NCBI GenBank assembly: GCA_018401215.1 | Contig: JAGYLA010000001.1 | Span: forward strand, 1-64,000 | DNA length: 64,000 nucleotides | Reading direction: 5' to 3' | DNA from: Bacilli bacterium | GTDB taxonomy: Bacteria > Bacillota_I > Bacilli_A > MAG-NZ | Shown: piece after piece, positions 322-42,246 of the stretch | Layout: each line of letters opens with the position of its first letter | How positions within the stretch are numbered: position 1 is the first letter of the stretch | Notes under the pieces: generated by a model | The model's input: only the letters and a program-made list of their open reading frames with translations | Told to the model about the DNA's origin: nothing | The model's database searches: none | Made by a program: the position numbers and the translations under genes

Positions 322-893
322 ATCTAATTGGGATTGCTTTTGGCGCGATTTTCGTTTCCAATGTTGTCTTGGCTCAGTTTTATGGATTGTGTTCCTTTCT
401 GGGTGTCTCCAAAAAACGTGGTCCAGCGTTATCCATGGGGGCAGCGGTTACCCTTGTCATTACCTTAAGTGCGATTATTTCTTGGGTGATTGATTATTAC
501 ATCCTTGTGCCATTTGATCTGCGTTATTTGAACACCATTGTATTTATTTTAGTCATCGCTGCGTTTGTCCAATTGGTTGAGATGACAATCAAACGTTTTA
601 GTCCACCACTCTATCAGTCACTTGGTGTGTATTTACCACTGATTACTACAAACTGTGCGGTGTTGGGGGTTGCCATCGACGCGACTCAACAATTGAGTTA
701 TAATTTTGTTGAAACGGCAACGTATGCGTTCTTTATCTCAGTGGGTTATGCTTTTGTCATCTACCTATTTAGTGCAATTCGTGAAGAGATGGATGCGTAT
801 GACGTACCAAGAAACTATCAAGGCCTTGGTGTTGGATTGATTACCGCCTTTATTCTTGCAATGGCGTTTTCTGGCTTTGTGGGGGTGGTTTGA
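318..893 (+). CDS. rnfA: Electron transport complex subunit RnfA
   Basis: 191 aa multi-TM protein, SNVVLAQFYGLCSFLGVSKK and TTNCAVLGVA motifs; ATGA overlap with rnfE. Confidence 0.93.
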   Translation: MNLIGIAFGAIFVSNVVLAQFYGLCSFLGVSKKRGPALSMGAAVTLVITLSAIISWVIDYYILVPFDLRYLNTIVFILVIAAFVQLVEMTIKRFSPPLYQSLGVYLPLITTNCAVLGVAIDATQQLSYNFVETATYAFFISVGYAFVIYLFSAIREEMDAYDVPRNYQGLGVGLITAFILAMAFSGFVGVV

Positions 894-1198
894 TGTTTGT
901 AGTATTGGGATTAGCATTATCGCTTAGTGTCGGTTTGGCCGTCATTTTGTCGTTTGCTTCAGAAGCACTCCATGTTCCAGAAGATCCACGATTGAATGAT
1001 TTGATTAATTTGCTCCCACTGGCCAACTGTGGTCAATGTGGAAACCCTGGATGCAAGGGGATGGCAGAAGCCATTTTAGGAGAAAATACTCGATTGTCGG
1101 CATGCAAGCCCGGTGATCAAGCAATGCGTGAGCGAATCCGTGAGTACTTGGAAACCCACCCAAGCGAAGAGGGCGAGTTTACAAAGGTAAAAATGTAA
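890..1198 (+). CDS. rnfB: RnfB-like protein, short form: N-terminal TM plus single [4Fe-4S] motif only
   Basis: TM helix then LLPLANCGQCGNPGCKGMAEAI...CKPG; stops at 102 aa without ferredoxin domains. Confidence 0.85.
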   Translation: MMFVVLGLALSLSVGLAVILSFASEALHVPEDPRLNDLINLLPLANCGQCGNPGCKGMAEAILGENTRLSACKPGDQAMRERIREYLETHPSEEGEFTKVKM

Positions 1199-1667: not shown

Positions 1668-3458
1668 TTATCGATTAATAACTGACTTATCAAGATATGT
1701 TGTGTGTAAATATCGTTTTGCGGTTGGACTAGCCACTTCTTTGACTTTTGTTTTATAGAATTGGACCAATTCATTCGATGGTACATATTGGTTATCGTAA
1801 TGAATGGATTGTTCGAGACTTCGTCGACGAAGTGTGGTGACATCAAGACCGCTTTTATACTCTTCGCGTAGAATTGGTTGGCCACCGCCATTAATACAAC
1901 CTCCAGGACAACCCATGAATTCCACATAATGGAATTGTTCATAGGGAAGCCCTTGGGCTTTGTTTGATTCTTGGATTGCCAAGTAATCCATCATGTCTTG
2001 CATCCCTTTTCCACCTTGAGCAGAAGCGACCAAGACTTCTTGACCTTGGATCATCACGGTAGCTTTGAATAAGATTGAGTCAGCCTGCAACGGTTCATAC
2101 ACAATCTCTTGTGTAGGAGTTTCACCGGTTTGGCGTTGCGCTGTACGTAAGATTTGTTCCATCAATCCCCCATTGACTGTAGGGATTGCTAACGCATTTG
2201 CTGAGTGATCAAGTGGGCTCTCAATTGTCACTGGCGTGACATCATCAATGTCAATTCTAGCGTATTGAATCATTCGCGCGAGTTCACGTGTTGTAATGAC
2301 CGCATCGACGTTCTTGAGGCCATCGTTGACCATATCGTCACGGTCCGCTTCGGTTTTATGGGCCGTACATGGAGAAATTGTGACAACAAACAATTTGGTT
2401 GCATCAACCCCGTATACATCGTGAGCAATGAAATTCTTCACAAAACTCCCTTGCATCATGTGAGGTGCTTTGGCGGTTGAAATGTGAGACAACATCTCGG
2501 GATGGTTTTGTTCCGCGTAACGAATCCAACCTGCACTACAAGAACTAAATAGGGGGAATCGGTTTTGATCTTCTGGTTGAGCAAGTTCATGAAGTAGTTC
2601 ATGCGCACTCTCGACCACCGCAAAGTCTTGGGCCAAGTTTGTTGTTGTAATGTCATCAAAGCCCATCAATTGTAATGCACCAAAGATTTGACCTTCGTAG
2701 GTTTCAACAGGGGTTCCAATATCATACCCAAACTCTTCCCCGATTGCTGCGCGAACCGCAGGGTCAATTTGTGCAACGACAAACGTGTTAGGGTCATCGA
2801 GTGCTGCTTCGACGCGTTTGATGTGGTCGCGTTCAACAATTGCCGCAGTGGGACATACTTTTGTACACAGTCCACAACCGATGCAGTTGACTTCATCCAG
2901 CGACCCTTTGCCAAACACAGGGGAAATGACACTGTCATAGCCGCGTTCCATGTATTCCAAAACGCCTACTCCAGCAATTTGATCACACACAGCAATGCAG
3001 GAAGAACAATGGACACATTTGGATGAATCCAATGTGATGGAAGATGATTCATTGAGTTTTAGTTCTTTGCCTTCAAGCTCAAACGAATGTTTAAATACAT
3101 CATCCACGTTGTACAAACGCATCTGATCAAACAAGTCGCAATTTTTTTCTCGTGGACAAGTCCAACAATCAAATGAGTGATAACTAGCAAGCAATTCTAA
3201 AGTTTGTTTTCTTGAATTGTTAACGCGTTCGGTCTCGGTGTTGACAACCATTCCATCGGCAGCTTCTAACGTACATGTCGTTTGCAGTCGACTGCCGTTA
3301 ACTTCAGCAACACACATACGGCATGCTGCAATATCATTCAGGTCTTTTAAGTAACACAGCGTAGGGACATCAACCTGTTGAACTTGCAATACATCCAGGA
3401 CAGTTTGACCTTGTTCGGCTTCAACGACATTTCCATTGATTGTCATTGAGATTTTCAT
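1668..3458 (-). CDS. hydA: [FeFe] hydrogenase catalytic subunit (HydA type)
   Basis: 596 aa; N-terminal 2Fe-2S, two 4Fe-4S motifs (CVHCSSCIAVC, CIGCGLCTKVCP), H-cluster motifs SSCSAGW / SPCTAHK / EFMGCPGGCINGGGQP. Confidence 0.93.
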   Translation of the reverse strand: MKISMTINGNVVEAEQGQTVLDVLQVQQVDVPTLCYLKDLNDIAACRMCVAEVNGSRLQTTCTLEAADGMVVNTETERVNNSRKQTLELLASYHSFDCWTCPREKNCDLFDQMRLYNVDDVFKHSFELEGKELKLNESSSITLDSSKCVHCSSCIAVCDQIAGVGVLEYMERGYDSVISPVFGKGSLDEVNCIGCGLCTKVCPTAAIVERDHIKRVEAALDDPNTFVVAQIDPAVRAAIGEEFGYDIGTPVETYEGQIFGALQLMGFDDITTTNLAQDFAVVESAHELLHELAQPEDQNRFPLFSSCSAGWIRYAEQNHPEMLSHISTAKAPHMMQGSFVKNFIAHDVYGVDATKLFVVTISPCTAHKTEADRDDMVNDGLKNVDAVITTRELARMIQYARIDIDDVTPVTIESPLDHSANALAIPTVNGGLMEQILRTAQRQTGETPTQEIVYEPLQADSILFKATVMIQGQEVLVASAQGGKGMQDMMDYLAIQESNKAQGLPYEQFHYVEFMGCPGGCINGGGQPILREEYKSGLDVTTLRRRSLEQSIHYDNQYVPSNELVQFYKTKVKEVASPTAKRYLHTTYLDKSVINR

Positions 3459-4825
3459 GCGGCTACCTCATTGAAGCATTTGCCACAGCGGCAATGTTTG
3501 TCGCGAATATGTTCAACAAACTCATCCTCAAAACTATACAGTGCCGAATACATTGTCATGCCCATGGCAACGCCCAAGCCGCAAAGGCTCGCATCACGCA
3601 TGTGCTCAGCTAAGTCTTTCATTTTTTGTAAGTCATCCATGGTCGCTTCCCCTTCGATGATTTTTTCGAAAAACTGAGTCATTTTACGAGTCCCAGCTCG
3701 ACACGGGGTACAGCGCCCACAACTTTCAATCGCAAGCAAGTCGACATTGAAATGCATAAAATGCATCAAACAAGTGGAGTCATCAAGAAACACGGTACCA
3801 CCAGAACCAACCATGACTTGTCGTTTTTTGAACGTGTCGAATTGAATTGGCATATCGATGTCATTTGGTCCAAGCATCGTGATGTTAGGGCTACCTGTAA
3901 CAAATGCCTTGAATTGACGACCTTCACGCATTCCACCACCAAGCTCAATCAATTCACGAATCGTTGTTCCCAAAGGTACTTCGACGGTTTTTGGTTCCTT
4001 TAATTGACCAGTTAAGGTAAATACCTTTGTGCCTTCGCTTCCGGGTACGCCCATGGAAGCGAACCATTCACCACCATTGAGTAAAATTTGAGGAACAATC
4101 CCTAATGTTTCTACGTTATTGATGATTGTTGGTTTATTGAATAACCCTTCGATGGCGGGAAACGGTGGCTTGTTCTTTGAGTTACCACGAAGACCCTCGA
4201 TTGAAGAAATGATCGATGTTTCCTCACCGCAAATATACGCACCTGCACCACGGTACATAATGATGTCAAAATCAACGCCACTGCCCATGATGTTTTTACC
4301 CAACAGGTTTTTAGCGATTGCTTGTTCGATTGCATGTTCCATCGCACGTTGTGCTTCAGGATATTCATATCGGATATAGACATAGCCAATCGTTGCGCCT
4401 GTCGCAAACCCAGCTATGATCATGCCTTCAATCGCACAATGAGGATCTTGACGCATTAAGACACCATCAATTGTCGCAGCGGACTCGCCTTCATCGGCAT
4501 TCATGATAATGTAATGTTGTTTGTCGGATTTTTTGACAAAACTCCATTTCATCCCGGTAGGAAATCCCCCACCACTGCGGCCTTTTAACCCTGATTTCTT
4601 GACTTCTTCAATGACATCATCTGGGGTCATCGAAAACAAAACCTTATGCAAGGCCTTGTATCCATCTCTAGCGATATATTCATCAATGGAATACGGATCA
4701 ATGATGTAGGCGTTTTTTAATTTGATCCGTAATTCTTTGGTTTTGTCATGGCGCAAATCTTTATCAAATTTGTTACCAACCGATTGTAAAACTTCTTGTT
4801 GAATTCGGTTAAGTTCTTGTATCAT
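3455..4825 (-). CDS. hydB: NuoF-like NADH-binding subunit of hydrogenase (HydB type, short)
   Basis: GLKGRSGGGFPTGMKW, MNADEGE, ESCGRCTPCRAG; 456 aa; overlaps hydA. Confidence 0.92.
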   Translation of the reverse strand: MIQELNRIQQEVLQSVGNKFDKDLRHDKTKELRIKLKNAYIIDPYSIDEYIARDGYKALHKVLFSMTPDDVIEEVKKSGLKGRSGGGFPTGMKWSFVKKSDKQHYIIMNADEGESAATIDGVLMRQDPHCAIEGMIIAGFATGATIGYVYIRYEYPEAQRAMEHAIEQAIAKNLLGKNIMGSGVDFDIIMYRGAGAYICGEETSIISSIEGLRGNSKNKPPFPAIEGLFNKPTIINNVETLGIVPQILLNGGEWFASMGVPGSEGTKVFTLTGQLKEPKTVEVPLGTTIRELIELGGGMREGRQFKAFVTGSPNITMLGPNDIDMPIQFDTFKKRQVMVGSGGTVFLDDSTCLMHFMHFNVDLLAIESCGRCTPCRAGTRKMTQFFEKIIEGEATMDDLQKMKDLAEHMRDASLCGLGVAMGMTMYSALYSFEDEFVEHIRDKHCRCGKCFNEVAA

Positions 4826-5298
4826 GAGTGGTCCTCCAGGTTGTTTAGGTATTGACGAAGTTCTTGTTCTGAAACATGTAGATGCATGGTGTGATCAATT
4901 TCAACATTTGGTGAATGCTCACAGCGGCCAAAACAACGCCCAATTCGTAAACTAACTTCACCGTCCGCTCTGGTTTCACCGGGAGCGACTTGTAAGACTT
5001 CGCTTGCAACTGCCAGCAAGTGTTTGGACTCTTGCATATAACAAGACGTTCCTACACAGACTTCAATTACGTGATTACCAAGTGGGGTCATCGTAAAGTA
5101 ATCATAAAATGTGACGATACCACTAACTCTAGCAACAGATACGTTCATTACTTCAGCAATGACTTTTTGCGCGGCCACAGGAACACATCGAAATTGTTCT
5201 TGGGCAATATGAACCACAGGCAATAAGCCGTCCGGTCTATCTTTATAAGGCACGATGGCCTCTTTGAATGTTTGTAATGCTTCTTGAGTATATTCCAC
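4822..5298 (-). CDS. hydC: NuoE-like [2Fe-2S] subunit of hydrogenase (HydC type)
   Basis: GIVTFYDYFTMTPLGNHVIEVCVGTSCYMQ..., GRCFGRCEHSPNVEID; overlaps hydB. Confidence 0.92.
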   Translation of the reverse strand: MEYTQEALQTFKEAIVPYKDRPDGLLPVVHIAQEQFRCVPVAAQKVIAEVMNVSVARVSGIVTFYDYFTMTPLGNHVIEVCVGTSCYMQESKHLLAVASEVLQVAPGETRADGEVSLRIGRCFGRCEHSPNVEIDHTMHLHVSEQELRQYLNNLEDHS

Positions 5299-5485: not shown

Positions 5486-8400
5486 ATGAAAAAAATATCT
5501 TTGTTCATTGCGATGACACTTCTTGTGATTGGGATTGGTGCTTGCGAATCAAATATTGTCGAAATCCCAATTGAGACCGAAGAACCGGTTGTACCAGTCG
5601 AACGAGAACCAGACACCAATGGCGTTGATTCTTCCCCTGAAGTCATTGTTGAATTTGTCGATCGTTTTATTACGGTGCCAGCAAACGTAGAGCGTCAACG
5701 TCGCTATTTACCAGGCACATATATGCTTTCAGAATCACGATCCAACGAACAAAGTGGATATGTTTTTTCTGTTGTTGTCATTGATGATTTTGGCTATATT
5801 GCCGGTGTTTATATTGATCAAACACTCTCAACAAGAAACCTATTTCGTAGTCCATCAGGAACGTTTTATGCATTTGTTCGAGGAAACCGAGTCAACATTC
5901 CTGATGCATATCGTGTGATTGAGCTGAAGACTCCGTTTGAATCGTATCCTACAACGAATGATGCGATTCGTACGACTGATTTGGTGGTTGGAATTGATGA
6001 TGAAGCGATTCGACAATTGGTTCGAATTCCTGTCAATGAGACCAAACAATTAGCAGCATCTCGTGTTGCAACGACCGGTGCACTTAATTATCAACAACAA
6101 ATGCAAGCTGTCGCTCAAAAAATTGTTGATGACAATACGACGTATGGCATCAATTTTATTGAAAAGAATGGTGTTATGACTGCATCAAACGTTGAAGGGG
6201 TTACCGAAGCTCTTGATGTGCCATTGTTTTTGGTCCAATCCATCTTAGATGGTCCTGCGGCATTGCCAGAAGATGCAACGCTGCGTTCATTGAGTCAACC
6301 TCGTTATGGTGTGTATGAAACAGGAATCTACACGACGTTTTCTCCCCTTTCTTATGTTGATGAGGGGCTTGTTCATGGATTCAGTATTGTTGTGGTAGAT
6401 GACTTTGGGCGAATGATTGGTGTGTATTTGGATGAAATTGTCGCCTCGACAGCCCGCTCTTCGGTTGTTGCCTCCAAACAAATCTTAAAAACAGCCGTTG
6501 GACTGTCTGCTACTCAAACATTGGAGTGGTTCGAACAAGCCAACATGGTAGCAAATCAAATCGTCTCTAACCAAGGAATTCAAGGAATCACCTTAGCAAC
6601 GCCGACTGAAGTGGTGGATGAAGTTCTTGCTGGTCAAGCGCCACTTCGAATTACAAACATGTCAAACATTACCATTCGTGCAAACGAAATTCTTCTAGCA
6701 ACCAAAGACAACCTAGCGCAAGCGATGGTTACGGATTATGTCGATGGAACGTATATCACTTCAAATTCATCCGCCTTTACTTACGTTACGATTCAAGACC
6801 AACAAATTGTTGATGTTTATGTCGACCGTTTTGTTTTGCGTGAGCAAGCACAAGTGTTTCGCCGTGGACAAGCAAGCAATGTGGAACGTATCGTCCGACA
6901 GTTTTCAACCCCAACCGGTAATGTCAGTGCAGATGTTTTGGTCTATTCTATTGGGGAATCGTATTATAGTGTTCACCGAGTGTCACAAGTTAACAACATA
7001 GTATTGCCGGCAAATCAAATCATTTCAATCGATCAAGCTATCGTCTTAACTGAGGAAGAGTTGGCCACAAAACGCCCTGTTCCAGGGATGCACACAGCTT
7101 CAAGTTTGCGCCGCGTTGATGCAGCTCAGGATACATGGGTGACCGACCAACAACAACTTGCGAATGCGATTGGAAACAAAGGAACGATAACCGATTTTCA
7201 AGTAGTGAATGGTCGCATTCCTAGCTTAACTTCAATTCCTCAACTACAAGTCGCAAATGTACTTGGGTTGGTTGCTGAAGGGTTGTATCAAGCCCGACAA
7301 GTGACAAGGTCTGGATTGAGTGTTCCGTTTATTGCTCAATCAACACCGCTTGCCAACGGGTCATACGTTAGCCATTCGGCACCTGACGTTAATGGTGCAA
7401 TTCATTTCACTTACATGGTGGTAAAAGACGGGGTGATTATTACTTGGATTGTCGATTCGACATTGCTTGTTGATGACACCTTACAATCAGTGATGGTTTC
7501 ATCACTGCCGCAAAAACAAGAGTTAATACAACTCTCCAATGCGCTACGTGAGTCCCAAACAACCATGTTGTATTCATTGATTGTTTCGCCAGCACCAAAC
7601 CCGACCATTCAATCGATTCAGTCCATAGATTTAAGAGACTCAGACAATGCACCACTACGTTTCGACGCTCATTACACAGTTCTTGATGACGTCATTCGTC
7701 AAGCAACAGAAGCCAAACAAACGCAAGACATTCGTTGGATTCGTGATTACTTTAACAACAGTGAAACGTACTTTAAATCCAAAACGCTCATTGAACAACA
7801 AACCACAAGCAACTGGTTGCCTAGTTCCATAACTGATCCTGCACTGAGTGATTCGTATCGATTGGAATGGCGAACAAGTGAGCGAGCATTGAGCTTAACG
7901 TTGCTTGGTCAGTCTTACTCGGCGTTTGTTTCACGCTTGGATGCAAGTTCCAATGCCTTTATTGAGTTGGAGATTTATCGTCCTGGACAAAACTTTGCGA
8001 TTTCAAGACAAGTCTTTGAATTACCCATGCGACAACGTACAGTATTTGGAACTACGTTACTTAATTCTCAGGCATTTGACTTGCCTAGTAACACGTTGTT
8101 AGCGGGCACACAATTTACTCTACCAAACTCAAATGAGCTCGCTGTCTCATGGCAAAGCACTCGTCCGCAAGTGATGAGTGCAGCAGGACTTACGGCCAAT
8201 GTGTCACAAGCAACACCCGTCGACATGATTGCTTACATTGATTTGGATGGCAATGGAGAACTGGGTCCCAACGAACCATCGCGAACGTATGCATTGACCA
8301 TTTTACCGTTACCGCTCGCATTAACACGCTTGCGTGCGGAATTGGATACGAATACCATTGGCGAATTTATTGGTAATCAAGTGACACTAGGAACCGCCTC

Positions 8401-9217
8401 TAGTGTGTGGGGATTGTCTTACACTTGGAGTGTCAACAACCAAAACGCGACGCTGATTGAAACTGCAGAAGCAACGCAGTTGTTTATTCGCTCATTGGAT
8501 GCTTCGCAAACAATTCAAGTAACTGCAACTATTAATGTCCCTAACAGTGACATTTCGACAACGTACAAGGTGGACACCGGGAACAAGCGTCAATACACTG
8601 AATTTGCGGCCATGGACTTGCCGGCCATGAACACTGACTCGGCCTTGATTCAGGGTGAATCTATTTTTGCGGACGATGCCACTCAAGGAGCATTTTATCG
8701 CAGTCAAATTCGTTTTTATACCACTGATTTTGGCCGATTTATTAATGCTCAAGGTGACGTCATTTATCAACATCCGACAATCGATGCCTGTTTTGAAGCC
8801 GTTGTGACATCAACATTCTCAGGGGGTGTCGTTGATGCTTCGGTTTCAGCATCCCATCCGTTTTGTGTCATGTCGTTAAAAACATTACAAGACCAAATGA
8901 ATGAGGACCGTGATCAACTTCAAGATTATGTGATTGATTTGGCGCTCACATCGCATGTGGATACACCGCTTCGATTGCCATTGCAAGGATGGGTGCATCA
9001 ACATCCCATTCGTTGGGAGGTCGTCGAAGGCCAAGAAGAACTACTCGACTACGTTGAGTTAAGCGGGTTAAGTAGTGGATTGGTGGTTGTGAAAACCTCA
9101 ACGAGTGATATTCCTGTTGGATTCTCGTTGCGACTCACTGCAGTGATTGATGTTACTGCTGGAACGCCACCTGTTGCCTCTACCAAAGAAGTGACCATTG
9201 AGGTACTAGGAGAATGA
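5486..9217 (+). CDS. Very large (1243 aa) surface lipoprotein with repeated FMN-binding-like domains and C-terminal Ig-like region
   Basis: Lipobox VIGIGAC; recurring GTYxxxS..(F/Y)..VVVIDDFGYIxGVYID blocks followed by ..EWFEQANMVANQIV.. and GVT-like motifs; C-terminal IRWEV..VEL..TLTAVIDV type Ig-like segment. Confidence 0.7.
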   Translation: MKKISLFIAMTLLVIGIGACESNIVEIPIETEEPVVPVEREPDTNGVDSSPEVIVEFVDRFITVPANVERQRRYLPGTYMLSESRSNEQSGYVFSVVVIDDFGYIAGVYIDQTLSTRNLFRSPSGTFYAFVRGNRVNIPDAYRVIELKTPFESYPTTNDAIRTTDLVVGIDDEAIRQLVRIPVNETKQLAASRVATTGALNYQQQMQAVAQKIVDDNTTYGINFIEKNGVMTASNVEGVTEALDVPLFLVQSILDGPAALPEDATLRSLSQPRYGVYETGIYTTFSPLSYVDEGLVHGFSIVVVDDFGRMIGVYLDEIVASTARSSVVASKQILKTAVGLSATQTLEWFEQANMVANQIVSNQGIQGITLATPTEVVDEVLAGQAPLRITNMSNITIRANEILLATKDNLAQAMVTDYVDGTYITSNSSAFTYVTIQDQQIVDVYVDRFVLREQAQVFRRGQASNVERIVRQFSTPTGNVSADVLVYSIGESYYSVHRVSQVNNIVLPANQIISIDQAIVLTEEELATKRPVPGMHTASSLRRVDAAQDTWVTDQQQLANAIGNKGTITDFQVVNGRIPSLTSIPQLQVANVLGLVAEGLYQARQVTRSGLSVPFIAQSTPLANGSYVSHSAPDVNGAIHFTYMVVKDGVIITWIVDSTLLVDDTLQSVMVSSLPQKQELIQLSNALRESQTTMLYSLIVSPAPNPTIQSIQSIDLRDSDNAPLRFDAHYTVLDDVIRQATEAKQTQDIRWIRDYFNNSETYFKSKTLIEQQTTSNWLPSSITDPALSDSYRLEWRTSERALSLTLLGQSYSAFVSRLDASSNAFIELEIYRPGQNFAISRQVFELPMRQRTVFGTTLLNSQAFDLPSNTLLAGTQFTLPNSNELAVSWQSTRPQVMSAAGLTANVSQATPVDMIAYIDLDGNGELGPNEPSRTYALTILPLPLALTRLRAELDTNTIGEFIGNQVTLGTASSVWGLSYTWSVNNQNATLIETAEATQLFIRSLDASQTIQVTATINVPNSDISTTYKVDTGNKRQYTEFAAMDLPAMNTDSALIQGESIFADDATQGAFYRSQIRFYTTDFGRFINAQGDVIYQHPTIDACFEAVVTSTFSGGVVDASVSASHPFCVMSLKTLQDQMNEDRDQLQDYVIDLALTSHVDTPLRLPLQGWVHQHPIRWEVVEGQEELLDYVELSGLSSGLVVVKTSTSDIPVGFSLRLTAVIDVTAGTPPVASTKEVTIEVLGE

Positions 9218-9747
9218 AGAACCAATTGATTCCAGCAATCACCAATGTCAAAGATTTAGAGTATTTTCTGACGTTGAATCATGACATTTGTGTGGTAATG
9301 TCGATTCACGTTTCCATGCTCAAACGTGTCGTAGAACGACTCAAAGCGCAAACCAAAACCGTTTGGCTCCATTTGGACTTGATTCCAGGCTTATCTTCGG
9401 ATGAACACGGCGCGGAATATGCTATTCAATATTTAAAGGTGGATGGGATTGTTTCGACAAAGACAAGTGCCATCAAAGCAGCAAAGAAAAAAAAGATTAC
9501 AGCGATCTTTCGAATCTTTTTGATTGATTCTGCATCAATGGACAAAAGCTTAGCTCGAGTCGATGAAATCAATCCTGATTATGTGGAGTTTTTACCAGCA
9601 TTAGCTCATCGAATCCTTCCAATCATTCAAGACCGATTGCATGTGCCGGTCATTGGGGGTGGGCTGATTCAAACGCAGTCTGACATTGATGACTGCTATG
9701 CCGAAGGAATGGTTGCTGTGACAGTCAGTAAGACCAACTTGTGGTAG
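9214..9747 (+). CDS. glpP: Glycerol-3-phosphate responsive antiterminator GlpP
   Basis: 177 aa: HLDLIPGLSSDEHGAEYAIQYLKVDGIVSTKTSAIKAAKK..., PVIGGGLI; ATGA overlap with the lipoprotein. Confidence 0.92.
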   Translation: MKNQLIPAITNVKDLEYFLTLNHDICVVMSIHVSMLKRVVERLKAQTKTVWLHLDLIPGLSSDEHGAEYAIQYLKVDGIVSTKTSAIKAAKKKKITAIFRIFLIDSASMDKSLARVDEINPDYVEFLPALAHRILPIIQDRLHVPVIGGGLIQTQSDIDDCYAEGMVAVTVSKTNLW

Positions 9748-34442: not shown

Positions 34443-35850
34443 TGCTACGAAGAAATTGTATCGTAGTTCGCACCATGGCTCCGGTACCAAAGTTATCACT
34501 ATCGGTTGCGCTACCTGCTATATCGCAGTGAACCCATTTCGTTTTCGGTTCAATGAATTCCTCTAAGAATGCGGCAGCCGCGGAAGCACCACCACTTCTT
34601 GTACCTGCATTATCGATGTCTGCCACTTTACCTTGGATTGCTTTTTTAAAGAATGGACCAATGGGTAGTTCCCATGCAAGTTCATTTGTTTGCTCTGCTG
34701 CTTGCAAGAATTGATTGACCATGCTTTTTGAATTACTAAATACGCCAGTATATTTTCCTATGGCAACGATAACAGCACCAGTCAACGTTGCAAAGTCAAT
34801 GATTCGTGAGGCACCTTCTTTGGTTTGAGCAAACCATAAGCATCTGCAAGTGTCAATCGACCTTCTGTGCGGTAGAGAGAAGATTTCCAATCGTTTGCCG
34901 TTTTGCACAGTAACAAGCATCATCAGGAACAAGGGCTTCCACTCACCATATTGTCGGTTGGAAACAATAATCAATACAATCATTCTCTTTGAGTTTTAAT
35001 GTCGCAGCTGCTTCAAGGGTTCCTAGTACTGTTGCTGCTCCACCCATATCCAGATTTCATATTCTTTGAGTTTGTTTGATGTTGTATCCACCCTGTACAT
35101 CAAAAGATTAGTCTCTTTGCAACAAGAGCAATCAGGTCCTCATTTCTTTTACCTTAGTATTTTAATAACAATAAGTTTTGGTGGAACCGAAGACCATGGT
35201 TGACTGTAAAAAGGCAGTCATTCCTAAGGCTTCGATTTCTGGTTGTCATATCTTATATTCCAGTTTCAATCGTTTGGCCAACTACCCATAGTCAGCTGGT
35301 GAACTGTTAAATAGTTATATGAGGTAAATTCACTAGTGTTTTTGCACTGTTTGCCCCCGTACTAATAATTACCGCATCCACCAATTTCAGATGTTAAGAT
35401 CGGTTTGGCTATAGTAATATACATTGATTGCAACCGCAGGTTCGCAGTGCTTTTTAATTGATCAGACATGGCTTGTCTAGCACAACTCTTCAGCAGAAGC
35501 GTGCCTTCTGTCACTTTGGTGACTTTGAGACAAACGAATCAACAAACAAGCCCACATCACGTTTGAGTGCCTTGGTGACTTTTGAAAGGGGAGTTCTGAT
35601 ATTCACTTTCTGTTTTTTTCTTATCTCCCTAAACCCACTACTACTTGCTTCCTGGAGCAGCTAGTCCTGAGGTTGGTTGAAATCAGATTAATTTCACCGT
35701 GAGGTTGATAGAATTCCTCTTTTTAATGATTTCTTTAAGTATCACCAGGTATATCAAATTGAGGAAAGGCTGTAAACCTTTATCAAAGCATCAGAACGAC
35801 TATGGTTTCTTTGATAAGACTGTATGGGTGTTTTTTGCTTGGATAAACAT
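34426..35850 (-). CDS. pepA: Leucyl aminopeptidase (M17), N-terminal two-thirds frameshifted
   Basis: KEGASRIIDFATLTGAVIVAIGKYTGVFSN...IDNAGTRSGGASAAAAFLEEF; TAEGRLTLADAYGLLKPK recovered in another frame; RBS aggagaatcctATG on minus strand. Confidence 0.75.
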
Positions 35851-35989
35851 AGGATTCTCCTTTATATAAAGTTTAGTAATCATACCTCACAGGCTCATTA
35901 GCGGAAAGGGTGAATATATGCCAGCGTTTGTGTATAAAGGTCTATAATGAGTTTGGATTAGAAGGATTTCTATAGTATACTGATTTAAC

Positions 35990-37290
35990 TAGCGAGTGAT
36001 TTATCGACTCTGTTCCTTATGTTACGATTTGCATCTGGATTTTTCTTCAATACATGTTTAATGTTGTTGATAGTATTTATGCGGGTCAATTTGGGTACGG
36101 ATGCATTAGCGGGTCTTGCGTTGTCATTTCCAATTTTCTTTTGATTATTGCATTAAGTGGAGGTGTAGGAAACGGGACTTCTGCACTCACTGCGATTGCC
36201 CATGGCAAGCTTACGCTTGAAGGAATTTCATCCAACTCGTATTGAATGCAACTGCCTTATCTATAGTATTGGTGTCGTGTTTGGTTTGCTGCTCCATTTG
36301 CGGTAAGTCGTTGTTTCAGTTGATAGGTCTTCCAGTGAATGCCGCTTGGGAGTAGAGTATGCAGACCATTTTCTTTGGTGTTATTTTTACCTTAACTTCG
36401 CGTTCAATGGAATGTTGAGTTCGCAAGGGAGATACCAAAACCATTTCGTAATTACTTGATCTAAGTTCTTCTTAAATTTAATCTTAGACCCATTATTTAT
36501 TTTTAGTTTGGTTTGGTCTTCCAGCCCTTAGTGTTGCTGGGGTTACTCTTAACGATTGTTGTTCAAGCAATCGGTACCTGATATTGCTGGCATATAAAGT
36601 GACTACCTCGGATGCATTTGATTGAGTTGTTAAGAGCAATCTACGGTGTGTAGGTCACAACAAAGATCTCCTTCGACAAGAATTCCAGCCTCATTGAATT
36701 CAATAACGATTGCGCTTAGTTAATTTGTGATCAATTACTTTGTCTTATTATATGGGGGCGATACAACGATTGCCGCTTATGGAGTAAGTTGCGCATTGAA
36801 CAATTGATCTTGTTACCAACTATTGGCTTGACGTTGCTGTATTAGCATTGTTGGACAAAGCTTTGGCGCTGGGACACAACCCAAGTTCATGAGTACGAGC
36901 GTTAACTACCAAATATGGTGTGATAATCATGGGTGCTGGAATGGCGTTGTATTCTGTTTGCTCCATACTTGATACAGATATTTGATCGAACCCCAGCCAT
37001 GGTGGATGCTGGTGTGACATTACTTGCATTGCTACACTAGTCTTCATAGCTTACATTCATTTAAGACATTGATGCCACTCAGTTACTTTGCAAGGAAATT
37101 AAACAGCCTAATTTTGCAATTTACATCGATTTTCAATGATTATTACCATTTGCTGTGTTCTACTTTTGGGTACAACACTTGGTCTTGGATTTTTAGTGTG
37201 GTAGGAACATTGTCTTTGTGAACTGGGTTGCAGTTGCTATATCGCTTTAACATACCAACCGTGGTTGGAAGCGTCTCACGCCTCACAATG
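35990..37290 (+). CDS. MATE-family efflux transporter, heavily frameshifted; boundaries approximate
   Basis: NVVDSIYAGQFG and LAGLALSFPIFFLIIALSGGVGNGTSALTAIAHGK recovered from adjacent frames. Confidence 0.6.
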
Positions 37291-37466
37291 TAAAATTTTC
37301 ACAGTATGCATGAATATTATAAATCAAAAATTATGTTTCATAGAACTTGTTTTGATTTTCATTCAAATATTATTTATGGTAGATAAAAGGAATGTAAATC
37401 TTCTTTATTTTGATTATAAAACTAAAAATTATCCAGTGGCAGGCACCAGGCCTGAAGGAGAATAAA

Positions 37467-38300
37467 ATGGGTAAATAAAATTAGTTGTTGATAGTATGTC
37501 CTTAGTTGACTTAATGAAGGATAAATTAGATGCTGATGTTCTTCGTGCACTCGTAAATTTTGATGAAGAATACGTTGATGGAACAGATTTGTCCCAGAAC
37601 AGTTGGCCATAATGTTGACTGCTAAACCTGGTGTCCCTACAAACATCCCAGCTACGATTGGTAACCGTTGAAACGTATGAAGAAGCGAAAAGAGGCGGTT
37701 ATACCGATGTGATTGTTATTACAATGTCGGATGAATTAAGCCCAGTGGAACGTATGCAAATACTATTGCTACCAAAGACATGGTAGAAAGGAATTAATAT
37801 TCACATTGTGAATTCAGTGATGGTTGGATTGAATATCAACTAATGACAAAGCAAAAATGATTGATCAGGAAGAGAGTCTCCCAGAAGAGATTGTCGCCCA
37901 GTTAGAAAGCGTGAAAAGCAGCTACAAAATCTATATGGTCGTTGGCGACTTGAATCTATTACACAAAGGTGGACGCCTTAGTACGGTGAAATATACGATG
38001 GGTCAACTGGCTGAAAGTCAAACCAATCTTAACGGTAAAGGTGACTGGTTCAATTGAAGCAGCAGGTAGTACTCGTACAATGAAAAAGTCAGTTGATTTG
38101 TTATTAAAAACCATTGCGACAAAATATCCGAAAATTTCCGAACTCGCCATCTTGCATTCGGATGCGCCTGGTCGCTGGAAAGCGTTGTGAGAACTTATTG
38201 AAAACAAGAACACCATCGATTGAAATTATATAGTTGGTTTCAACCATTGGTGCTCACGTAGGGCTAGGTACTGTTGCCGTTACGTTTGACCGCTTGATTT
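37467..38300 (+). CDS. DegV family fatty-acid binding protein, heavily frameshifted
   Basis: Fragments LVVDSMS, KTPGVPT, TVETYEEAKR(E)GYTDVIVITMSDEL, YMVVGDLNLLHKGGRL, IGAHVG.GTVAVTF. Confidence 0.65.
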
Positions 38301-38311
38301 GTGTGCTCTCT

Positions 38312-38342
38312 AGAAAAAGACACTTTAAAGGTGTTCTTTTTC
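38312..38342. terminator. Terminator between degV-like and chr-like genes
   Basis: agaaaaagacactttaaaggtgttctttttca. Confidence 0.65.
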
Positions 38343-39450
38343 ATTGATAAGTTATAAGAAGAATGCACCCGACAACGGCACCAATCATCGTGAAACAGGA
38401 TTGGTCTTTGTCTTGGTAGAACGACAAAGGAGACGATGACAAGCAACAATGGAAGTAGACTATTCGGTATTGATTCCAATACAGCTTGATCGAACAATAC
38501 CCAAGTGACTTATTGCCATCAAGGCGATGCTTGCAATACTAACACCTTGCAGTACAGGTTTTTTAATAAAGGATGGTCTTTGAATTTGTCTACCTGCGGA
38601 TATAACAGCATTGAAGAAATGATGAATGATGGCGCAGATATAGCAATTGTTGCAAGGAGTTGCTCCTGGAAGATCCCCCAAAATAAACCCCACAAGGTTG
38701 CGGTTGTGAAGATGGGTCCTGGGTTAGTGCCTATTGCGACAGCGTCAATCAATTGATTCGATGTAATCCAGCCGAGTCGTTCCACAAAATCAGCATTGAA
38801 ATAAGCTAACAGAACGTAGCCGCCACCATAAGATGGAGTCAATCTTTAACATCGTCATAAACAATAAAATATCGTTGAGAAGGGTTCGACGACTCGAAAT
38901 TGAATTGAGGACGCTGAATCGCACCATCGTAACGGCATAAATGCAAGTAACCATAGCTCTCAGCGAATCAGTTATAAATAATGCCACAACAATAATCAAA
39001 ACGAACAAGCTTCTTGCGACCCATGTTGTTGAGATTTTTTGTGAGCCGAATCAGAATGCGATTGCGATTACTGCAATAATCACCGGAGTGATTCCTGCAA
39101 GCAACCGATTGAAAACTTCAAGTGACTCAAAACGGGTATATACAAGACTTAAGAGTAAGACTAAGACAAACGCAGGAAGATGAAACTGATTCCTGCAGTA
39201 GCAATCAATTGATTTTTGCGCGGTGATAACCAATCAAACTCGCCATTTCTGTCGAGTTTGGTCGGGGATGATTGATGACAATCATTTGAAGAAAGGTTTC
39301 CTGCGTTAACCATTGTCGCCGTTGCACAAACTCTCGTTCCATCAATCAATGTGTGTGCAGGACCTCAAATGCGTAGAGACCAATGTGAAAAACGCAGTAA
39401 TAATTTCAATATTTATTTTTCATAGTCCGATAATATCATGATAGTAAGCC
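38342..39450 (-). CDS. CHR-family (chromate transporter-like) permease, heavily frameshifted; 5' boundary approximate
   Basis: Fragments RRWLTQETFLQMIVINH, PNSTEMASLIGYHRAK, FNRLLAGITPVIIAVIAIAF, GGGYVLLAYFNADFVERLGWITSNQLIDAVAIG, LLATIAISAPSFI. Confidence 0.65.
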
Positions 39451-39563
39451 TTATTTTGCCTTGTAAAATAGAATTTACAGATTACTATTGCACATTACGA
39501 AGTAGTGGGTTATAGTAGAGATACATTACTTCATGTAATAAGTAATAAATGAAGAAGGTGCTA

Positions 39564-39877
39564 ATGGATACTCAATTTAAAAAGGCATTATCCCGAAGTG
39601 TGTGTGTTATCAGAACTCGATAAAACAGACAACTATGGATATTTGCTTGTGAAAACATTATCAACATTTAGGGTGGTGAGAGCACCATTTACGATGCTTC
39701 GCAAACTAACGCTAGAAGGCATTTTGGATCAATATGAAATGGAGAGTGCTGATGGTCCTACCGTAAGTATTATCGGCTTACTGGCAAAGGCAAAGAACGG
39801 GCTCATCAATTAAAAACAGGTCAACACATTCCATCAAAAGTAAATAAAGTCTTAGGAGGATCAAACGATGAATAAAC
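39564..39877 (+). CDS. PadR-family transcriptional regulator, frameshifted
   Basis: CVLSELDKTDNYGYLLVKTLSTF, MLRKLTLEGILDQYEMESADGPT, LTGKGKERAHQLK across frames. Confidence 0.7.
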
Positions 39878-41056
39878 ATGAATTTATTGCTGAATTATCT
39901 GTGTTACTGAAAGTCAAACAAGAAGACAAACATCATTGAAGAATACGAAAGCTATATTACAGAAGCTCTAGCTGACGGAGAACGAAGAAGATATCATAAG
40001 TAGTTTGGAGACGCCTGCGCAAATTGCTGAGCATGCAAACCTGGAGCTGGGCATCGATGCCAGAGCAGTCTCGATACATCTGATAAGTCGACCCAGTTCC
40101 CAAAGAATTCAAAGAAGTTCAGATTTCTTTAATGAATTAGACGACGAGTTGGAAAAAGCGTTCAAGGCAGTGAGAAAGCGATCAAACGAGGCAGGAGAAT
40201 CGATCAACAAGTCCATCAAAGGCATCTTTGGAGCACTGTTAGGCAAAGTCATGGATGGTGTGGATAAGTCGATCGATGAATTATTTATGGTTCTTGACAT
40301 CAGACGGCCTCGGTTGTAGCAGTACGTTTGATAATTCCAAGTGGAGTCGTATCTGTCACTGCAAACAAGTGACGATTCAAATTGATGATGAAAACTCTGA
40401 ATCACTATTTGTAGAACTTGTTCAAGGTCAATCCCAGTGGATAGTCAAGTATTTGCCGAGCTTCATTAAAACTAGACATTGCGTTTCCAGAGACGAGTCA
40501 ACTAGTGATTCGTGTGCCGCTGACTAGCATTAAGTTTGCTGAGAAAAAACGCTTGCGATTATATATTCCAGAACAGATGGAGCATATAAGCATCCGTTCC
40601 AATTGCCCGGTTAGCTTAAAGGACGTATCGACAAACATAGATTTGAAGGGTAGCCATGTGTGTACCATCAAAAGTGTCACCATGGAACAATTAACTGTGA
40701 GTGTCGAAGATGCGGCTTGCACGATCAAAGGAGCAAGTGTTAAAGCATTGGTTCTCCATGCTAATGATGCGCCAGTATCGATCAAAGATGTCGATGCAAC
40801 AAGCGTTCAATTACACGTTATGGATGGACCTGTGTCGATGAGTGGATTGCATGTTGATTCTTTGTGGATGGAGACAGGGGATGGACCAAAGACGGTTCGC
40901 CACTCCACCATCAAGGAAATGATCGTTCAAAGCACGGGCGGACCATTTAGTATGAAAGAACTTCACGTTGATGTGTTAAAAGGCCAAGTAGAAGGACATG
41001 CAGTCCATATGAAAGATTGTGTGGTCAAAGACAATCAACTGGGGGAAATCCGATGA
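39868..41056 (+). CDS. HAAS (DUF1700-like) plus DUF4097-like region, frameshifted before about 40505
   Basis: MNKHEFIAELSVLLK, IIEEYESYITEALADGE, SLETPAQIAEHANLELG; intact beta-helix-like 183-aa DUF4097-type ORF 40505-41056. One or two genes unclear. Confidence 0.6.
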
Positions 41057-41880: not shown

Positions 41881-42246
41881 ATGAAACGAGCTGACATTGT
41901 CTTAATTGTAGTGATTTTAGCCGCCTCAATTTTGGGATTTTTTGGATTGCGCCAAGTGTCTGATACGTACTTTTTAGAAATCATTTTTGATGGTGAACGA
42001 ATTCATTACGAGCAATTGAATGAGTCCTCCACTTCAAATTTGGTGATTGAACGGATTGGACGTGTTGAAATTGAGATTGTCAATGGAGTGGTTGATGTTG
42101 TTTCAGCATCGTCAAACCCCAATCAGATTTGTGTGTATGCTGCTCCTATTTCGCAAGACTCGTGGAATCCTAATATTATTTGTGCACCCAACCGTTTAAC
42201 AATACGAATCATCGGTGGTGCACCTGTTGTTGACGTCATAATTTAA
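41881..42246 (+). CDS. NusG domain II-like membrane-anchored protein
   Basis: N-terminal TM; VEIVNGVVDVVSAS..QICVYAAPI...NIICAPNRLTIRIIGG pattern. Confidence 0.7.
   Translation: MKRADIVLIVVILAASILGFFGLRQVSDTYFLEIIFDGERIHYEQLNESSTSNLVIERIGRVEIEIVNGVVDVVSASSNPNQICVYAAPISQDSWNPNIICAPNRLTIRIIGGAPVVDVII

Follow-up and report, generated by a model that had tools for sequence, protein, structure and literature searches.

A giant lipoprotein encoded beside Rnf and hydrogenase genes contains four divergent FMN_bind-like repeats

Close to an rnf operon end and a hydrogenase locus, the 64,000-nucleotide stretch of Bacilli bacterium DNA analyzed here (contig JAGYLA010000001.1; "the window") encodes a very large lipoprotein, P0001. 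The question raised by this locus is what the repeated part of the protein is and whether it carries flavin at the cell surface.

The P0001 gene and its neighbors

The P0001 gene occupies positions 5486 to 9217 of the forward strand and encodes 1243 amino acids, with codons 1 to 20 forming a signal peptide that ends at the lipobox Cys20 (5543 to 5545). The lipoprotein signal is MKKISLFIAMTLLVIGIGAC. An earlier reading made from the sequence alone (the sequence-only reading) had described a 1243-residue lipoprotein ORF and had quoted several peptide blocks from it, and the ORF, its length, and the blocks were all found as stated. The ORF is real and conserved, with homologues in 4/4 genomes of its order, and no long frame was found on its reverse strand. 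Promoter and terminator scans returned about as many sites as were obtained with shuffled sequence.

The proximity to Rnf and hydrogenase genes that the same reading had pointed out also held. The end of an rnf operon (an rnfE fragment, rnfA, and a short rnfB) fills positions 1 to 1198 of the forward strand, and a gene for a rhodanese-like lipoprotein (1199 to 1636, forward; Pfam Rhodanese, E = 6.5e-8) lies directly behind rnfB. The adjacent reverse-strand locus at 1668 to 5298 contains hydA, hydB (NuoF-like), and hydC (NuoE-like) of a trimeric HydABC-type [FeFe] hydrogenase, and P0001 starts 187 bases from hydC, which runs divergently. To the right, the end of P0001 overlaps by 4 bases a forward-strand gene for a GlpP-type antiterminator (9214 to 9747; Pfam G3P_antiterm, E = 2.9e-53), after which come glycerol-3-phosphate oxidation genes.

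A similar arrangement was found in related genomes. In genome G002, an orthologue with 30% identity (L018:8012-11920) also lies beside divergent hydABC, and the G003 counterpart, a fragment (L022), has hydC and hydB next to it. Paralogues were present as three tandem copies besides the orthologue in G002 (L019), as fragments in G003 (L023 and L024), and as one gene in G001 (L020:6615-10745). A further copy in G001 (L021:10039-12803) is broken by several stops and is located upstream of rplC, the place of the intact orthologue in G002; hydABC, present there in G002, was not seen in the fetched stretch around the broken copy.

Several other features of these loci were recorded. The rnfB of the window (890 to 1198) encodes 102 amino acids and matches the RnfB model over its first half only, without the C-terminal ferredoxin part, and this short form recurs in five other genomes as open frames of 112 to 129 amino acids. 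The rnf operon of the genome that holds the window starts on contig C20 with a HydA-like protein (L025:3009-4754) that lacks the H-cluster cysteine motifs, having TSSNAGW, SPSTAAK, and NDTFGGLITGGGQP instead. In the hydA-like genes at the corresponding rnf place elsewhere, the second motif at least is still present (IMPCTAKK in L072 and IMPCTSKK in L070). A possible role for the HydA-like protein of L025 is that of an iron-sulfur subunit feeding electrons into Rnf. Farther along the window, at about 35000 to 40300, no ORF above about 107 amino acids was present across five kilobases; DegV-like and membrane transporter-like fragments are spread over different frames, which suggests gene decay or frameshift errors, and neither Rfam families nor tRNAs were found when sought in this interval. 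Positions 41881 to 42246 encode a protein with NusG domain II, behind which come genes for ABC transporter ATPases and a CbiQ-type protein; NusG_II genes were also found near FMN_bind-like lipoproteins in L070 and L080.

Four repeats of the FMN_bind superfamily and an Ig-like C-terminal part

Alignment and an AlphaFold model (pLDDT 71, pTM 0.67) divided residues ∼70 to 745 of P0001 into four repeat units. Repeat 1 (5693 to 6277, forward; residues 70 to 264) and repeat 2 (6305 to 6736, forward; residues 274 to 417) are divergent FMN_bind domains with worn acceptor sites, EGVT at Thr240 (6203 to 6205) and SNIT at Thr396 (6671 to 6673), respectively. Repeat 3 (6734 to 7324, forward; residues 417 to 613) and repeat 4 (7325 to 7720, forward; residues 614 to 745) are FMN_bind-like domains in which the acceptor is lost. 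In the model, each of the four units runs through three strands, a helix containing EWxEQ, an acceptor loop, and a final helix, and insertions are long in repeats 1 and 3. When aligned to each other with hhalign, repeats 1 and 2 gave a probability of 98% and repeats 1 and 3 a probability of 95%; these values, together with the matches to an outside FMN_bind-like subfamily as against controls, indicate that the repeats are not due to chance. The sequence-only reading had counted about five repeats, and profile analysis and the AlphaFold model upheld the repetition and corrected the number to four.

Searches of the whole of P0001 against Pfam and NCBIfam returned no match. The PF04205 gathering cut-off was not reached, and among nine members of the P0001 family only one matched the Pfam FMN_bind model, at no better than E = 0.3. 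A class-wide profile search with the P0001 family recovered single-, double-, and rhodanese-fused lipoproteins that share the P0001 repeat unit, and two short relatives, L038 (26.7 bits) and L033 (28.8 bits), scored above the Pfam FMN_bind cut-off of 22. The divergent FMN_bind subfamily was found in at least 133 of 395 genomes. Compared with it by hhalign, the families of repeats 1, 2, 3, and 4 gave probabilities of 98.4, 99.7, 98.8, and 99.4%, whereas no control, whether a reversed profile or one of the four C-terminal segments, exceeded 1.3%. The corresponding values for the P0001 repeats alone were 91, 98.9, 68, and 6%; repeats 3 and 4 are therefore recognized mainly via relatives, and repeat 4 by itself is too diverged and is recognized only via homologues. 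The subfamily in turn matched canonical FMN_bind members at 92 to 94%.

Structural comparisons were also made. The subfamily profile found 2KZX, a solved, uncharacterized protein that represents the subfamily and has TDAISGATIKV at the acceptor place, at E = 9.9e-19, while the whole-family P0001 profile gave a partial match only to 2KZX in the PDB. A Foldseek search with the four-repeat model gave no significant E-value; among the matches listed, only the FMN_bind protein 3O6U (probability 0.80, target TM 0.53, E = 0.3) had a probability above 0.11. The same structure was named as the closest structural homologue of two multi-flavin proteins in their characterization paper (PMC10339131). The predicted structure and its Foldseek matches agree weakly with the FMN_bind assignment. 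Profile comparison, the solved relative 2KZX, and the predicted topology give good support for placing the P0001 repeats in the FMN_bind superfamily, and the resemblance to FMN_bind proposed in the sequence-only reading is borne out for each repeat family.

The C-terminal part (7721 to 9214, forward; residues 746 to 1243) has an AlphaFold model with a pLDDT of 59 overall and 87 to 95 in the better blocks, with high confidence at residues ∼856 to 945, over which at least the part looks Ig-like. Foldseek returned matches to Ig chains, down to E = 1.9e-5, and weak Pfam aBig_2 matches were found in relatives; residues ∼800 to 1035 look Ig-like.

Flavin acceptor sites and the apbE and rnf context

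FMN is attached by ApbE to the last residue of the motif Dxx[ST]GA[ST] (PMC12052999; PMC8238504). A motif check of the whole of P0001 found this strict motif absent, in agreement with the sequence-only reading, which had seen no clear [ST]GAT motif; the nearest segments were SNVEGVT and NMSNIT. The VEGVTEA and NITIRA segments singled out in that reading proved to be the motif remnants of repeats 1 and 2. Because the motif that defines ApbE substrates was looked for and is absent, membership of P0001 among them is not well supported, although the protein may still work like one.

The acceptor position holds Ser or Thr in repeats 1 (Thr240) and 2 (Thr396) of P0001 and not in repeats 3 and 4. Among family members, the acceptor Ser/Thr of repeat 1 was kept in 3/3 hydrogenase-linked members, with EGVT in P0001 and AGVS/SGVS in the two orthologues (L018 and L022), and that of repeat 2 was kept in 8/8 members. 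The G002 orthologue reads DSIAGVS here. In the tandem paralogues the pattern is reversed: repeats 2 to 4 have [ES]GCT, TGVT, and [AT]GVS, and the repeat 1 site lacks Ser/Thr. Erosion has gone further in P0001 than in its orthologues. The motif is worn in 4/4 domains, and the acceptor residue is lost in two. Glu stands at the [ST] position in repeat 1, and Gly is missing from repeat 2. In published mutants, changing the Ala of the motif to Val keeps about half of the flavinylation, loss of Asp has a minor effect, and Ser is accepted (PMC12052999). Since these changes are tolerated, EGVT of repeat 1 is, by analogy, a plausible flavin acceptor; the mutants described there cover neither Glu at the [ST] position nor a missing Gly. 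Variant sites, such as AGTS and SGTT, also occur in the RnfG proteins of the P0001 lineage.

A search for an ApbE-like flavin transferase in the genome, suggested in the sequence-only reading, located one (G000:C1:128185-129087, E = 9.9e-65). It is of the lipoprotein type and lies 121 kb from P0001. The idea that its presence proves flavinylation of P0001 was rejected, since Rnf already requires ApbE and alone explains it. In related genomes the two genes are closer. The apbE of G002 is directly upstream of the orthologue, about 70 bases apart; that of G003 is beside the orthologue, with one in-frame stop in a fragmented assembly; and that of G001 follows the paralogue two genes downstream. 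Five more distant genomes had a single detected apbE, in each case no more than about 1.1 kb from the short relative. Among the matches listed, subfamily genes and apbE were at most 5 kb apart in 18 and at most 15 kb apart in 24 of the 60 genomes for which both were listed, with about 1 genome estimated within 5 kb by chance; related genomes in this count are not independent.

The rnf context was seen elsewhere as well. Five rhodanese-carrying relatives (L069 to L073), in five other genomes, lie convergently and immediately behind rnfB. There, the rhodanese is fused to FMN_bind-like repeats at the position where the window has its separate rhodanese-like lipoprotein. A scan of genome contigs gave one locus, in an Acholeplasma MAG, where two such lipoproteins come straight after rnfEAB. 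Taken together, the apbE and rnf context of the relatives points to flavin. Short FMN_bind-like lipoproteins also recur in one kind of gene cluster in four genomes (L075, L076, L077, and L080), together with apbE and a gene for a Hpre_diP_synt_I/ECF-type membrane protein; the cluster resembles a module for flavin supply and electron transfer.

Relation to known systems and likely function

In its predicted structure P0001 shows the unit layout of the PF04205 subfamily represented by 2KZX (strands, EWxEQ helix, acceptor loop, and final helix), and its repeat families match the subfamily profile, but it falls below Pfam detection, has long insertions in repeats 1 and 3, and has lost the strict [ST]GA[ST]. 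The closest published class is that of the multi-flavinylated proteins (Meheust et al. 2021, PMC8238504; SaFMN3 and CbFMN4, PMC10339131), which, like P0001, are exported, contain tandem FMN_bind domains, and are linked to apbE and often also to membrane electron-transfer systems. Those proteins have an intact motif in each domain and several covalent FMN, whereas P0001, with an export signal and four domains, has worn sites in at most two and strict sites in none, and, unlike them, has a large Ig-like part behind its FMN_bind domains. P0001 is probably a divergent variant of this class, set apart by its link to Rnf and hydrogenase genes and by the Ig-like part at its C terminus. The relatives L069 to L073 share its repeat subfamily and its place by rnf but have one or two repeats, mostly intact AGV[TS], and an N-terminal rhodanese where P0001 has the C-terminal Ig-like part. 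RnfG/NqrC offers a further parallel as an extracytoplasmic FMN_bind domain working with Rnf; RnfG, however, belongs to the Rnf complex itself as an integral subunit and has a single transmembrane helix, whereas P0001 is a lipoprotein, and its genome has a separate RnfG (L025).

P0001 is probably related, in a way not recognized before, to proteins that transfer electrons outside the cell. The reading that it carries at least one covalent flavin and acts in extracytoplasmic electron transfer near Rnf is held with about even confidence. We infer flavin attachment to P0001, Rnf as the donor, electron transfer as the function, and likewise a surface conduit. The four tandem domains would lie close to the lipid anchor, with the Ig-like part pointing away from the membrane. 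The ApbE of the genome probably flavinylates one or two domains (repeat 1 at Thr240 and possibly repeat 2 at Thr396), and repeats 3 and 4 would serve as spacers. P0001 would then most likely take electrons from the membrane Rnf complex and carry or buffer them at the cell surface.

The evidence can also be read as loss of flavin altogether in this lineage, with the FMN_bind fold now serving as a scaffold, either structural or for binding (as in an adhesin or a lipoprotein that docks a partner), and electrons transferred by other flavoproteins. Erosion of the motif in every domain, with the acceptor gone from two, fits this, as do the Ig-like half of the protein and the lack of an apbE beside P0001 in its own genome, unlike in G002 and G003. 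However, the acceptor Ser/Thr is retained in repeats 1 and 2 across the members noted above, and the orthologues retain apbE as a neighbor; such reuse is a real possibility, if a somewhat doubtful one. Noncovalent binding of FMN or another small ligand, for flavin capture, delivery to ApbE or Rnf, or signaling, would account for a fold kept while the covalent site was lost, and apbE neighbors fit a flavin-supply role, but nearly all single-domain relatives have kept the covalent acceptor, and this reading is improbable. That the FMN_bind resemblance is superficial and the fold unrelated is highly improbable: the missing family-model matches and the weak hhalign scores of the repeats when compared directly with a few canonical FMN_bind/RnfG domains from the order (0.3 to 36%) speak for it, while profile homology is strong when traced transitively by way of the subfamily, the controls are clean, and the subfamily matches a solved protein with an SGAT motif.

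A more specific scheme may be considered, although it is speculative and rather unlikely as a whole. In this giant Rnf/hydrogenase-linked lipoprotein family, some of the four FMN_bind domains would carry flavin and others would be flavin-free spacers. Different paralogues would have kept opposite domains (repeat 1 and the acceptor residue of repeat 2 in the hydrogenase-linked copies and repeats 2 to 4 in the tandem array), and together the domains would form an adjustable surface electron path from Rnf.

P0001 extends the multi-FMN_bind class to sequences missed by current family models, which suggests that surveys based on strict SGAT motifs or Pfam undercount the Rnf-linked extracytoplasmic flavoproteins in this bacterial class. 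Flavin attachment at the eroded sites, if it still takes place, would widen the range of substrates known for ApbE; if it does not, P0001 would be an example of a redox domain turned scaffold.
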